A stretch of 64,000 nt of DNA from Lysobacter soli. Its GTDB lineage: Bacteria; Pseudomonadota; Gammaproteobacteria; Xanthomonadales; Xanthomonadaceae. This document shows, one piece after another, positions 28,375-59,090 of the stretch. Under the pieces are notes generated by a model. The model did no database searches and was not told where the DNA came from. It saw only the letters and a list, made by a program, of their open reading frames with translations. Location of the stretch: assembly GCF_003382285.1 (NCBI RefSeq), contig NZ_QTJR01000003.1, positions 186,001 to 250,000 on the forward strand. Direction: 5' to 3'. The stretch's first letter is position 1, and the number at the start of each line of letters is the position of its first letter. The position numbers were made by a program, and so were the translations under genes.

Positions 28375-28402
28375 CGTCATCCCGGCGAAGGCCGGGACCC
28401 AG
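28375..28402 (+). repeat. REP-like palindrome, copy A
   Basis: Starts CGTCATCCCGGC, then GAAG loop, then GCCGGGACCCAG. Member of the repeat family described under findings. The stem is intact though its bases differ from the common form. Confidence 0.8.
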
Positions 28403-28426
28403 GCTCTCACGCGATCCGTGATCCCC

Positions 28427-28453
28427 CGTCATTCCAGCGAAAGCTGGAACCCA
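28427..28453 (+). repeat. REP-like palindrome, copy B
   Basis: Same family and same direction as the copy 24 bases before it, with stem ATTCCAGC / GCTGGAAC around a GAAA loop. Stem changes relative to other copies are paired on both arms. Confidence 0.8.
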
Positions 28454-38728: not shown

Positions 38729-40027
38729 ATGACCGACGCAGTTTCCGAGCTTTACTCCGATACGTACGCAATCGCCCAGGACGCCGCCGACCCGCTGCGC
38801 GACATGCGCTCGCAGTTCCTGATCCCGCAACACGTCGGCGCCGACCAGGCATACTTCGTCGGCAATTCGCTGGGACTGCAGCCGCGCGGTGCGCGTGCGC
38901 ATGTCGAGGAAGTGCTGGACAAGTGGGCGCACGAAGCCGTCGAAGGCCACTTCACCGGCCAGGCGCAATGGATGCCGTACCACGAACTGGTGCGCGAATC
39001 GCTCGCGCGACTGGTCGGTGCGAAGCCGCTGGAAGTCGTGGCGATGAACACGCTCACGGCGAACCTGCATTTCATGATGGTGAGCTTCTACCGACCCACG
39101 CGCGAGCGGCCGGCGATCCTGGTCGAAGCAGGCGCGTTCCCGTCCGATCGCTACGCCGTCGAGTCGCAGATTCGTTTCCACGGATTCGATCCGGCGACGG
39201 ACCTGATCGAAGTGCAGCCCGATCGCGACGATGGCACGACGTCGATGGAAGCGATCGAGCGCGCGATCGCCACGCACGGCGCGCGACTCGCCCTCGTGCT
39301 GTGGCCGGGCGTGCAGTACCGCACCGGACAGGCGTTCGACCTGCCGCGCATCGTGAAGATCGCGCACGCGCACGGCGCCGTGTGCGGCTTCGACCTTGCG
39401 CACGCGGTAGGCAATCTCGAACTTGCGCTGCACGACAGCGGCGTCGATTTCGCCGTGTGGTGCCATTACAAGTACGTCAACAGCGGTCCGGGCGCGGTCG
39501 CCGGGTGCTTCGTCCACGAGCGCCACGCGCACAGCGATCGCCCGCGTTTCGCCGGCTGGTGGGGGCATGAGCAGAACACGCGCTTCCGCATGGGCCCGCA
39601 TTTCGTGCCGACGCCCGGCGCGGAAGGCTGGCAGCTGAGCAATCCGCCGATCCTCGGCATGGCGCCGCTGCGCGCTTCGCTGGAGCTGTTCGATGCGGCC
39701 GGCATGCCCGCGCTGCGCGCGAAATCGCTGCGCCTGACGGGCTATCTGGAAGCGCTGATCCGCGAGCGGCTGGACGGCACTCTGCAGATCGTCACGCCGG
39801 CCGACCCCGCCCAGCGCGGCTGCCAGCTGTCCCTTCGCGTGATCGGCGGCCGCGGTCTCACCGGCCGCGACGCGGGGCGCGCATTGTTCGATGATCTCGC
39901 CACACGCGGCGTGCTGGGCGATTGGCGCGAACCCGACGTCATCCGCATCTCGCCCACCCCGCTCTACAACACGCACGCGGACGTGCTGCGGTTTGTGCGT
40001 GCGGTAGAGGCATGGCGGGATGGTTGA
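38729..40027 (+). CDS. kynU: Kynureninase
   Basis: PLP enzyme of 432 aa that splits 3-hydroxykynurenine to 3-hydroxyanthranilate and alanine. The cofactor lysine is Lys248 in CHYKYVNSGPG; the family blocks GNSLGLQPR and FRMGPHFVPT are present. It starts five bases after the tautomerase gene. Just three bases after its stop the REP-bounded cassette begins, which separates it from the monooxygenase gene. Confidence 0.95.
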   Translation: MTDAVSELYSDTYAIAQDAADPLRDMRSQFLIPQHVGADQAYFVGNSLGLQPRGARAHVEEVLDKWAHEAVEGHFTGQAQWMPYHELVRESLARLVGAKPLEVVAMNTLTANLHFMMVSFYRPTRERPAILVEAGAFPSDRYAVESQIRFHGFDPATDLIEVQPDRDDGTTSMEAIERAIATHGARLALVLWPGVQYRTGQAFDLPRIVKIAHAHGAVCGFDLAHAVGNLELALHDSGVDFAVWCHYKYVNSGPGAVAGCFVHERHAHSDRPRFAGWWGHEQNTRFRMGPHFVPTPGAEGWQLSNPPILGMAPLRASLELFDAAGMPALRAKSLRLTGYLEALIRERLDGTLQIVTPADPAQRGCQLSLRVIGGRGLTGRDAGRALFDDLATRGVLGDWREPDVIRISPTPLYNTHADVLRFVRAVEAWRDG

Positions 40028-40030
40028 AGC

Positions 40031-40057
40031 TGTCATTCCCGCGAAGGCGGGAATCCA
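40031..40057 (+). repeat. REP-like palindrome, left end of the GIY-YIG cassette
   Basis: TGTCATTCCCGCGAAGGCGGGAATCCA, an exact 27-bp inverted match to 40385-40411. Each end folds by itself (ATTCCCGC / GCGGGAAT around GAAG). It begins three bases after the kynureninase stop. Confidence 0.9.
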
Positions 40058-40083
40058 AGTATCAGGCGTTTCAAGGATGAGGA

Positions 40084-40380
40084 ATGGCGAAGCAACCGGC
40101 GGTCTACATGCTGGCAAGCAATCGCAATGGCACGATCTATATCGGCGTGACGAGCAACCTGATGGCGCGCACCTGGCAACACCGCGAGGGCCTGATGTGA
40201 GGCTTTACAAAGCAACACGACGTCACGCGCCTGATCTGGTACGAACAGTGCGAAGACATGTCGGCCGCAATCCATCGAGAGAAGCAGTTGAAGAAGTGGA
40301 ACCGGGCATGGAAGGTCCGACTGATCGAAGAACGCAATCCTGAGTGGAGCGATCTGTGGCCCGGCCTTGCCGGCAACTGA
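40084..40380 (+). pseudogene. GIY-YIG nuclease interrupted by an in-frame TGA
   Basis: Reading frame of 98 codons for a small GIY-YIG endonuclease of the YhbQ/UPF0213 type, too broken to appear as one open frame. The N-terminal part has AVYMLASNRNGTIYIGVTSNL with the GIY-YIG residues and MART with the catalytic arginine; after a TGA at codon 39 (40198-40200) the frame continues without shift through GFTKQHDVTRLIWYE, HREKQLKKWNR (catalytic glutamate) to a normal end. AAGGA is six bases before the ATG. It is enclosed by exact 27-bp inverted repeats, so it looks like cargo of a small mobile element, recently inactivated or recoded. Confidence 0.85.
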
Positions 40381-40384
40381 CGCC

Positions 40385-40411
40385 TGGATTCCCGCCTTCG
40401 CGGGAATGACA
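40385..40411 (-). repeat. REP-like palindrome, right end of the GIY-YIG cassette
   Basis: TGGATTCCCGCCTTCGCGGGAATGACA, the exact reverse complement of the left end. It ends 15 bases before the GTG of kynurenine monooxygenase. A GC dinucleotide lies outside both ends (40029-40030 and 40412-40413), compatible with a two-base target duplication but far too short to prove it. Confidence 0.9.
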
Positions 40412-40426
40412 GCATGGGGACCGAAC

Positions 40427-41797
40427 GTGACTGCAATACCCGACAACCGCCACATCACCCTCATCGGCGCCGGCCTCGCCGGTGCGGTGCTCGCGACGCT
40501 GCTGGTGCAGCGCGGCTGGCGCGTGGACGTGTACGAGAAGCGCGGCGATCCGCGCGTGCAGGGCTATGGCGGTGGGCGTTCGATCAACCTCGCGCTGGCA
40601 GAGCGCGGCCGTCACGCGCTTCGACTCGCCGGGGCAGACGACGCGGTAATGAAGCACGCGGTGATGATGCGCGGCCGCATGGTGCACTTCCTCGATGGCC
40701 GCACCGACCTGCAGCGGTACGGTCGCGACGATAGCGAGGTGATCTGGTCGGTGCATCGCGGGGAACTCAATGTCGTGCTGCTCGACATCGCCGAACGCGC
40801 CGGCGCGCGGCTGCACTTCGACCGGGGGTTGTCGAACGTCGATTTCGACGCGCGCATCGCGATGTTCACCGATCCGCGCGACGGCAGCACGCACCAGGTG
40901 GCATTCGAATCACTCGTCGGTGCGGACGGCGCGGGATCGGCATTGCGCTCTGCGATGACGAAGCAGGTCGATCTGGGCGAACGCACCGAATCGCTCGGGC
41001 ATTCGTACAAGGAGCTGGAGATCCCGCCTGCGCGGGACGGCAGCTTCAGCATCGAGCCCAACGCACTGCACATCTGGCCGCGCGGCCGTTACATGTGCAT
41101 TGCCCTGCCCAACGACGAACGCACCTTCACCGTCACGCTGTTCCTGCCCAACGAAGGCGATCCGAGCTTCGCGACGGTGCGTACCGGACATGACGCGCGC
41201 GCGTTGTTCGAACGCGACTTCGCCGATGCGCTGCCGCTGATTCCGGATCTGGAGCAGGATTTCGAGCGCAACCCGACCGGCATCCTCGCGACGCTTTACC
41301 TTGATCGCTGGCACCTGGACGGTCGCGCCGTGCTGCTCGGCGACGCCGCGCACGCGATGGTGCCGTTCCACGGGCAAGGCATGAACTGCGCGTTCGAGGA
41401 CTGTGTCGCACTGGCCGAACAACTCGATGCCCAGCCCGACCGCGCGGCCGCATTCGCCGCGTTCCAGGCCGATCGCCTGCCGAACGCCCGTGCGATCCAG
41501 CAGATGGCGCTGGAGAACTACCTGGAGATGCGCGACCGCGTGGATGACGACGATTACCTGCTGCAGCGCGCGCTCGAACGCGAACTCGCGCAGCGTCATC
41601 CGGATCGCTTCATGCCGCGCTATGCGATGGTGACCTTCCACCGCATTCCGTATGCCAGGGCGTTCGAGCGCGGACGGCAGCAACGCGACCTGCTGGTCGA
41701 CCTCACACGCGGCCATGCGTCGCTCGACACCCTCGACTGGAACGTGGTCGACGCCGCCGTGCGCGAACGCCTCTCGCCGCTGCCCGTGGACGCCTGA
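40427..41797 (+). CDS. kmo: Kynurenine 3-monooxygenase
   Basis: FAD and NADPH dependent hydroxylase of 456 aa making 3-hydroxykynurenine. The FAD loop GAGLAG is at 14-19, the DG-type motif is in GADGAGSAL, and the second FAD motif is in LLGDAAHAMVPFHGQGMNCAFED. I chose GTG with GGGGA six bases upstream; longer frames begin inside the adjoining repeat and would add the peptide AWIPAFAGMT, which is translation of REP DNA. Ends two bases before sbcB. Confidence 0.95.
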   Translation: MTAIPDNRHITLIGAGLAGAVLATLLVQRGWRVDVYEKRGDPRVQGYGGGRSINLALAERGRHALRLAGADDAVMKHAVMMRGRMVHFLDGRTDLQRYGRDDSEVIWSVHRGELNVVLLDIAERAGARLHFDRGLSNVDFDARIAMFTDPRDGSTHQVAFESLVGADGAGSALRSAMTKQVDLGERTESLGHSYKELEIPPARDGSFSIEPNALHIWPRGRYMCIALPNDERTFTVTLFLPNEGDPSFATVRTGHDARALFERDFADALPLIPDLEQDFERNPTGILATLYLDRWHLDGRAVLLGDAAHAMVPFHGQGMNCAFEDCVALAEQLDAQPDRAAAFAAFQADRLPNARAIQQMALENYLEMRDRVDDDDYLLQRALERELAQRHPDRFMPRYAMVTFHRIPYARAFERGRQQRDLLVDLTRGHASLDTLDWNVVDAAVRERLSPLPVDA

Positions 41798-51029: not shown

Positions 51030-51057
51030 CGTCATCCCCGCGCGGGCGGGGATCCAG
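51030..51057 (+). repeat. REP-like palindrome, pair D left
   Basis: CGTCATCCCCGCGCGGGCGGGGATCCAG: stem ATCCCCGC / GCGGGGAT, with a GCG-type loop instead of GAAG. The paired change from TTCCC to TCCCC on both arms keeps the stem. Confidence 0.82.
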
Positions 51058-51109
51058 CTATGGCTGCGCCACGCCTCCGCCAGCCGTCGGGCGTGACGGT
51101 ACGGATGCA

Positions 51110-51135
51110 TGGATTCCCGCCTTCGCGGGAATGAC
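51110..51135 (-). repeat. REP-like palindrome, pair D right
   Basis: TGGATTCCCGCCTTCGCGGGAATGAC, the common form, in reverse orientation to its partner with 52 bases between. No gene lies between the two. Confidence 0.85.
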
Positions 51136-55400: not shown

Positions 55401-55428
55401 CGTCATTCCCGCGAACGCGGGAATCCAG
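55401..55428 (+). repeat. REP-like palindrome, pair E left
   Basis: CGTCATTCCCGCGAACGCGGGAATCCAG: the stem extends to 11 bp through the GCG/CGC pairs around a short GAA loop. Faces its partner across 52 bases. Confidence 0.87.
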
Positions 55429-55480
55429 CGTCTTTCGTGGACGGCAGCTGCTTGCAGTGCGGCGGGTGCGTGCAAAGGCA

Positions 55481-55508
55481 CTGGATTCCCGCGTTCGCAG
55501 GAATGACG
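55481..55508 (-). repeat. REP-like palindrome, pair E right
   Basis: CTGGATTCCCGCGTTCGCAGGAATGACG, reverse-oriented partner of the copy at 55401, with one mismatch in the stem (A for G). Confidence 0.85.
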
Positions 55509-59062: not shown

Positions 59063-59090
59063 CGTCATTCCCGCGAAGGCGGGAATGACG
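59063..59090. repeat. Solo symmetric REP-like palindrome, copy F
   Basis: CGTCATTCCCGC / GCGGGAATGACG around GAAG, a perfect 12-bp stem. Both outer arms are CGTCATTCC-type, unlike other copies whose second arm ends TCCAG, so this is a symmetric variant. It lies between pirin and the next membrane gene. Confidence 0.85.

Follow-up and report, generated by a model that had tools for sequence, protein, structure and literature searches.

What is a small nuclease gene, enclosed by two exact inverted palindromes, doing between two genes of the kynurenine operon? The question is raised by a 64,000-nucleotide stretch of the Lysobacter soli genome, hereafter the window, in which a unit of 381 bp separates the genes that we take, following an earlier note on this DNA, to be kynU (kynureninase) and kmo (kynurenine 3-monooxygenase). 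That note, made from the sequence alone, read the unit as a mobile cassette of repetitive extragenic palindromes (REPs) and a GIY-YIG nuclease, with the nuclease standing in for the REP-associated tyrosine transposase (RAYT). We find that the pairing of nuclease and palindrome is, on the evidence of genome comparison, very strongly supported. In our view it is likely that a REP-nuclease module has decayed here, one in which an Ssn-type GIY-YIG enzyme recognises tagged hairpins as folded single strands.

A nuclease pseudogene in the kynU-kmo junction

The unit and its neighbours are laid out as follows:

38729..40027, plus strand: kynU, the host operon gene upstream of the unit and a conserved neighbour (open reading frame, start picked by eye)
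40029..40057, plus strand: left palindrome, a CGTC-1-type REP with tag TGTC facing outward, stem ATTCCCGC, loop GAAG and tail CCA
40084..40380, plus strand: GIY-YIG nuclease pseudogene of 98 codons and a stop, matching PF01541 at E 8.9e-17, interrupted
40198..40200, plus strand: in-frame TGA at codon 39 of the nuclease, upstream of the conserved Glu66
40385..40413, minus strand: right palindrome, the exact reverse complement of the left one
40427..41797, plus strand: kmo, downstream of the unit (GTG start picked by eye)

The inverted arms span 37 nt (40029-40065 and 40377-40413) with 92% complementarity, and 29 of these nucleotides match exactly, slightly beyond the 27 originally claimed. Each arm forms a hairpin with an 8-bp stem and a 4-nt loop (-8.9 and -8.7 kcal/mol in a DNA fold, z -3.6 and -3.9), with the TGTC tag outside and the CCA tail towards the nuclease gene. 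The pattern TTCCCGCNNNNGCGGGAA, with up to two mismatches, occurs nine times in the window against 0.74 expected. A detector of tagged hairpins (GTC tag, stem of at least 8 with at most one mismatch, loop of 3-6, within 300 bp) found any such hairpin at 134 (3.7%) of 3654 control positions in 382 kb of own and related genus DNA, and hairpins on both sides in the inverted order of the unit at none of them. Together with the excess of TTCCCGCNNNNGCGGGAA, this indicates that the arms are not there by chance. The gap from the kynU stop (40027) to the kmo GTG (40427) measures 399 bp, and subtracting the 381-bp unit leaves 18 bp, within the 16-18 bases foreseen in the earlier note. No terminator-like site was found in 39900-40600.

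While the cassette and its GIY-YIG domain (Pfam PF01541, recognised with the stop read as X) stand as first described, the intact, active gene does not: the TGA at codon 39 had been overlooked. The window copy is a pseudogene, barring stop read-through, because this codon precedes Glu66, while the orthologue at the same junction in a congener (G002) is 93% identical and stop-free. The nucleases of this group are single-domain GIY-YIG proteins in which PF01541 covers residues 6-77, and Y8, Y19, G21, R29 and E66 are conserved; the alignment behind this has 89 rows, one of them a duplicate, and the threshold for conservation is at least 90% of the rows. Five GIY-YIG matches, the window copy included, are present in the L. 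soli genome. One is an open nuclease with the same palindrome type between the presumed gspE and gspF genes (L076), where the upstream palindrome alone remains; another is a paralogue with CCAGC palindromes (L068). Tandem arrays of a short unit, CCCGAAT/TCGGGAA, lie beside tagged palindromes downstream of the nuclease at L076 and, at the place near 34.2 kb of the window, in G009, G011 and G004.

Decay of the gene next to one or two surviving palindromes was also seen elsewhere, in partial, split or stop-bearing copies (L077 in G002, L064 in G006, L152 and L159 in G149, L160 in G089), and a partial second nuclease copy lies near L102 in G114.

Other identities for the gene were tried. A defence gene was rejected, PADLOC returning no family, and NCBIfam likewise gave no family by which to name the nuclease. 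Phage origin was rejected with three weak matches in 50,697 phage records, as was plasmid origin, with matches in 36 of 72,556 plasmid records, several of the 20 listed being megabase-sized.

Nucleases and palindromes across genomes

Is the association particular to this junction, or does it belong to the nuclease wherever it is found? A relative of the nuclease at E 1e-10 or better is carried by 62 of 197 genomes of the family, to which Pseudoxanthomonas and Lysobacter belong (by contig and position, G162 corresponds to Pseudoxanthomonas gei and G048 to Lysobacter selenitireducens). Our family set comprises 100 of the 110 loci collected in genus and family; left out were nine GIY-YIG genes that are only remotely related (above E 1e-8), as well as L161, which is 100% identical to L102 and is the same locus over again. 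A tagged palindrome accompanies 80 of the 100 loci, and at 55 of them palindromes stand on both sides, inverted and tag outward. None of the nine remote relatives has a tagged hairpin.

For a wider sample, named genomes supplied at least 579 relatives, of which the best 80 were taken, and phylum genomes (103 of 398 with a match) supplied the best 30. One of these 110 loci was a duplicate and four belonged to the family set as well, so that 105 remain, mostly from other families. Tagged hairpins accompany 91 of them, inverted on both sides in 64 (94 and 65, with 15 lacking any, among the 109 before the four were dropped), and shuffling the flanks brought tagged hairpins to about zero. The hosts include alpha-, beta- and gammaproteobacteria, along with assemblies labelled Chloroflexi, Bacteroidetes, Planctomycetaceae, Parcubacteria and Omnitrophus. 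The proposed partnership of REP and nuclease thus gains support from inverted palindromes on both sides at 55 of 100 and 64 of 105 loci. The outcome that the earlier note had named as contrary to its proposal, homologues mostly without palindromes, did not materialise, since 80 and 91 loci of the respective sets have them.

Two side observations concern the wider sample. The same arrangement occurs in L231, L242 and L244, labelled Parcubacteria, Moraniibacteriota and Uhrbacteria and presumably tiny genomes, where it may reflect contamination. At L219, L235 and L274 the flanking palindromes depart widely from the others in stem and loop (CTGAACTTGTTTCAG) but retain the GTC tag and the inverted order; L219 and L235 are alphaproteobacteria by name.

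The type of palindrome follows the type of nuclease. In 29 of the 55 pairs the two flanks of a locus match without a difference over 25 nt, against a mean of 3.8 and a maximum of 10 in 10,000 random re-pairings. Mapped on the nuclease tree, stem type changes 18 times versus 44.4 when shuffled, with none of 200 shuffles as low, and the CCCGC stem 4 times versus 28.9. One clade of 43 rows holds 39 CCCGC stems, three CCTGC and a single row without a palindrome. Outside the main nuclease clade 9 of the 10 rows lack palindromes, inside it 8 of 78. With stem type following clade and flanks matching each other, these comparisons show that nuclease and palindrome occur together and, as read from the tree, evolve together.

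A second line of evidence is the abundance of the palindrome in each genome, counted across the 197 family genomes as matches to GTCATTCCCGCNNNNGCGGGAATC with at most one mismatch. Copies are present in 87 genomes, and a reversed control pattern gave none; the L. soli genome itself has 112, and 88 exact copies are counted there. The median is 20 copies where a full-length CCCGC-clade nuclease is present (n=33), 1 where there is another nuclease only (n=26) and 0 where there is none (n=135); three genomes with only partial gene copies, kept apart, have 42, 57 and 67. At least 20 copies are found in 26 of 62 genomes with the nuclease versus none of 135 without. Y1_Tnp, the domain expected of a HUH/Y1 transposase, was detected in 133 of the 197 genomes and does not change copy number (p 0.16): the threshold of 20 copies is reached in 19 of 50 genomes with nuclease and Y1, 7 of 12 with nuclease only, 0 of 83 with Y1 only and 0 of 52 with neither. 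The L. soli genome yielded no Y1_Tnp match. Palindrome abundance thus tracks the nuclease and not the HUH/Y1 enzyme, which favours the suggestion that a GIY-YIG nuclease takes the place of RAYT. Such a RAYT-like role is the best lead we have.

Junctions, recurrent sites and gene-less dimers

Was the unit inserted? Of 39 genomes searched, 30 provided loci for comparison: 12 from the genus, 15 others with kynU adjoining kmo, and three without kynU nearby. Read by eye, the genus junctions fall into three states: the cassette is present in four of 12 (G000, G002, G003, G008), a lone tagged palindrome, for the most part imperfect, in three (G001, G007, G009), and neither in five (G004, G005, G006, G010, G011). 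In G009 the junction looks, by eye, as if the left arm's beginning had been joined to the right arm. Among the 15 other genomes the cassette occurs in one (G018). In a Kmo/KynU tree of 17 genomes, all four cassettes of the genus fall into a subclade of nine species, together with the three lone palindromes and two of the empty junctions, a distribution that fits one insertion followed by losses. The view of the cassette as an inserted unit is thereby strengthened; its occurrence at this site in all relatives, named beforehand as evidence to the contrary, is not what we observe.

The same chromosomal sites recur across genera. In the family survey 17 nuclease loci lie at kynU-kmo, with both genes verified on the two sides; an acuI-like site unites 26 loci by both flanks and 29 by either, and a gspE-gspF site 20 and 21, respectively. 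The names gspE, gspF, acuI-like, prmB, aroC and cydA at flanking sites are putative, the translations having been read by eye. A single origin is neither shown nor rejected in approximately unbiased (AU) tests of the kynU-kmo cassettes (p-AU 0.112) and the gspE-gspF cassettes (p-AU 0.132), and p is 0.449 for the four genus copies at kynU-kmo together with G018; many forks of the nuclease tree are unresolved because the gene encodes only about 98 amino acids.

The acuI-like site provides one clear case of exchange. Two nearly identical species differ there in their alleles: G011 has a CCGGC dimer with one nuclease, and G004 a CCAGC dimer with another. The flanks are nearly identical; the alleles begin to differ at the upstream gene's stop codon and continue to do so into the nuclease gene, to approximately its last fifth. 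What was swapped here is the palindrome type together with most of the nuclease.

Free mobility of the whole cassette, as the earlier note envisaged it, is not borne out. Recent transposition was not seen, the same few sites recur in several genera, and full-length nuclease paralogues within one genome are at most 79% identical in the family survey. By eye, no clear target duplication is present at the kynU-kmo junctions or at the compared dimer sites.

Two loci depart from the usual picture at kynU-kmo. At L043 (G012) the gap of 211 bp is occupied by a different repeat, copies of GTAGGAGCGACTTCAGTCGCGA with inverted relatives; this junction has attracted a second repeat family. At L122 (G067) a cassette lies near kynU on its other side, and the adjacent sequence resembles, by eye, a reversed kynU start.

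The palindromes also exist apart from the gene. Among pairs of the 88 exact copies in the L. soli genome that lie less than 500 bp apart, 13 are inverted with tags outward, five tandem and none of the opposite order. The cassette is one of the 13, and the other 12 have 55-122 bp between starts. They recall REPINs, the REP doublets known from RAYT systems. Further arrangements of palindromes in the window are:

28376..28450, plus strand: two tandem tagged palindromes, with stems CCGGC and CCAGC; the two types recur at a different site in the genus, as flanks of paralogous nucleases
51031..51135, no strand assigned: gene-less inverted dimer of tagged palindromes, REPIN-like; at the orthologous place the detector gave none in G001, G009 and G004 and one in G002, and G003, G007 and G008 are unscored, their flanks overlapping
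55402..55507, no strand assigned: gene-less inverted dimer of tagged palindromes, REPIN-like; a single palindrome with a different stem type stands there in G001, the flanks abut in G007, and in G002 the detector gave none, yet the segment reads like a remnant
59064..59089, no strand assigned: single palindrome with a GTCA tag at both ends, fully symmetric (detector)

At orthologous places, dimers of about 100 bp near 34.2, 44.0, 51.0 and 55.4 kb of the window are found in some congeners and lacking in others; several relatives are uncomparable, with flanks too diverged or overlapping, and some places hold single palindromes or remnants. Some dimers have, by eye, a common interior sequence.

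Mechanism, alternatives and known systems

What could maintain such units at a few sites in so many states? The nuclease is probably the missing partner of the hairpins, to judge from their joint distribution. The hairpin, GTC-ATTCCCGC-loop-GCGGGAAT-CCA, which bounds the nuclease gene and is scattered along the chromosome singly and as inverted dimers, would be recognised as a folded single strand. The nuclease might nick such hairpins in single-stranded DNA, either on the lagging strand or in DNA taken up by transformation, after which host repair could copy, exchange or delete the DNA bounded by REPs. Hydrolysis of DNA by GIY-YIG enzymes passes through no covalent intermediate; lacking this link to DNA, the enzyme cannot rejoin ends as RAYT does, and the host must. 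Loss may leave a single palindrome that is still a target, and recombination with the DNA of a relative could refill the site. Lone-palindrome targets and refilling would explain why few fixed, shared sites are met in occupied, lone, empty and swapped states.

A broader version of this account, which we advance tentatively and lean slightly against, holds that the entire CGTC REP superfamily is mobilised by enzymes dedicated to it, the GIY-YIG nucleases of the present clade, which would make this a second solution beside the RAYT/REPIN system, with a different chemistry. The hairpin would be cut single-stranded, host repair would copy REP dimers and refill lone-palindrome sites, and the modules would persist at few chromosomal homes across genera, exchanging specificity as alleles of REP plus nuclease.

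Several observations weigh against the preferred reading of the unit. The window copy of the nuclease is broken, and in no genome of the family survey have full-length copies of the nuclease gene multiplied recently. No tagged palindrome lies near 20 of the 100 family loci and 14 of the 105 further loci. Stems other than CCCGC cluster less on the tree, CCGGC changing 10 times versus 14.1 when shuffled. Among the 26 genomes with another nuclease only, six have at least 10 copies of the palindrome and five at least 20, and nine of the 135 genomes without a detected nuclease carry 11-19; these copy-number statistics ignore the shared ancestry of the 197 rows. Cleavage itself is presumed from homology. 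Finally, the correlation leaves its direction open, and the nuclease could police palindromes instead of spreading them.

This last point leads to the most serious of the alternatives, which we nevertheless hold to be unlikely: a guard or pruning nuclease that cuts incoming or exposed single strands bearing palindromes, as reported for Neisseria Ssn in transformation, the palindromes around genes being self-labels and neither component mobile. The confinement of cassettes to few shared sites, the want of recent cassette bursts in the family survey, and the near absence from phages and scarcity among plasmid records reported above would all suit such a guard. Gene-less inverted dimers of about 100 bp that come and go between species at orthologous places would not, and the higher copy number in genomes with the nuclease is a better fit to spreading.

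Far less probable is the possibility that the palindromes are RNA elements of the operon, stabilisers of the mRNA or attenuators, with the nuclease as a passenger. Each arm is a stable hairpin and the site is inside an operon; against this, palindrome type follows nuclease clade and differs between species at one site, the interval searched holds no terminator-like site, and five of the 12 genus junctions do without a tagged palindrome. A classic homing endonuclease or a small insertion sequence would account for a nuclease gene amid inverted repeats, sitting between genes, and is a shade less probable again: no gene or intron is interrupted, the palindromes are at the ends of the unit and missing from empty junctions, and neither a clear target duplication by eye nor near-identical copies within one genome were found. 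Least probable of all, and rejected here, is a RAYT (HUH/Y1 transposase) moving the REPs with the GIY-YIG gene as chance cargo: Y1_Tnp is indeed common in the family, yet the L. soli genome has 112 copies and no match to it, copy number is independent of Y1, and Di Nocera et al. (2013, PMC3733652) came across no gene for a tyrosine transposase with CGTC REPs at its sides.

How does the preferred reading, a decayed REP-nuclease module, compare with systems already described? The palindromes themselves are familiar. By Di Nocera et al., the CGTC-1 REP family, including Neisseria dRS3, is given a CGTC, TGTC or CCTC tag, an 8-bp stem starting from AT, a 4-nt loop and a CCA-type tail (PMC3733652). 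The window palindromes have the end tag (TGTC/CGTC), the 8-bp stem starting with AT, the 4-nt loop and the CCA tail, and in the L. soli genome they form many copies, single or in inverted dimers; the inverted order dominates in both, if tag outward is equated with the head-to-head (HH) order of that paper. The frequent GIY-YIG neighbour found here sets our palindromes apart from the published description, and the main text of PMC3733652 makes no mention of GIY-YIG. According to the same paper, CGTC REPs, dRS3 and Rickettsia RPE-6 among them, are apparently without a dedicated transposase (PMC3733652); their tight and widespread pairing, specific in stem type, with a very small nuclease offers a concrete candidate. 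Among the matches listed in a literature collection lacking most subscription papers, no title or abstract beginning linked GIY-YIG with REP, palindromes or RAYT, and in passages of PMC9465073 the terms GIY-YIG and REP/RAYT occur unrelated to each other.

REPINs were defined together with RAYTs (Bertels and Rainey 2011, PMC3116915), and the likeness to a RAYT/REPtron arrangement is close: one enzyme gene amid inverted REPs, gene-less inverted dimers, and an enzyme paired with its own REP type. Where a RAYT system has a HUH/Y1 gene, the enzyme flanked by inverted REPs of its own type is here a GIY-YIG nuclease. An autonomous transposon or insertion sequence is a poorer match, as neither near-identical copies within a genome of the family survey nor, by eye, a target duplication was found. 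Among solved structures, a profile search at E 0.01 retrieved as relatives only the small GIY-YIG proteins of UPF0213, PDB 1zg2 (E 1.8e-6) and 1ywl (3.4e-4), and performed better than a single-protein search, which gave mainly WD-repeat noise.

The closest counterpart is the Ssn family of Neisseria. Its GIY-YIG nucleases are reportedly specific for single-stranded palindromes, the NTS repeats; the enzyme is said to cut its own repeat solely as a single strand and to have a role in transformation. A relative in Neisseria gonorrhoeae DSM 9188, which we take to be Ssn (L183), shares 67% identity with the query and is likewise bracketed by tagged palindromes. Shared with Ssn are the small, single-domain GIY-YIG protein with its catalytic residues, as seen across the nuclease family, the type of palindrome and its position around the gene; the window copy differs in its stop codon, and cleavage in the present case is presumed by analogy. 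The pairing has probably been described in part already as Ssn/NTS, and the earlier note's impression of an undescribed kind of unit accordingly finds no support. What is added here, and is not known to be part of the Ssn description, is the family-wide co-evolution of the two components, a copy number that tracks the nuclease and not RAYT, the turnover of dimers, junctions that are occupied, lone or empty, and the swapping of alleles at fixed sites. If the proposed role is correct, populations of REP-type sequences have grown up around two nuclease chemistries that are unrelated to each other. The natural pairs of nuclease and palindrome with different stem types offer a ready series for studying hairpin recognition.
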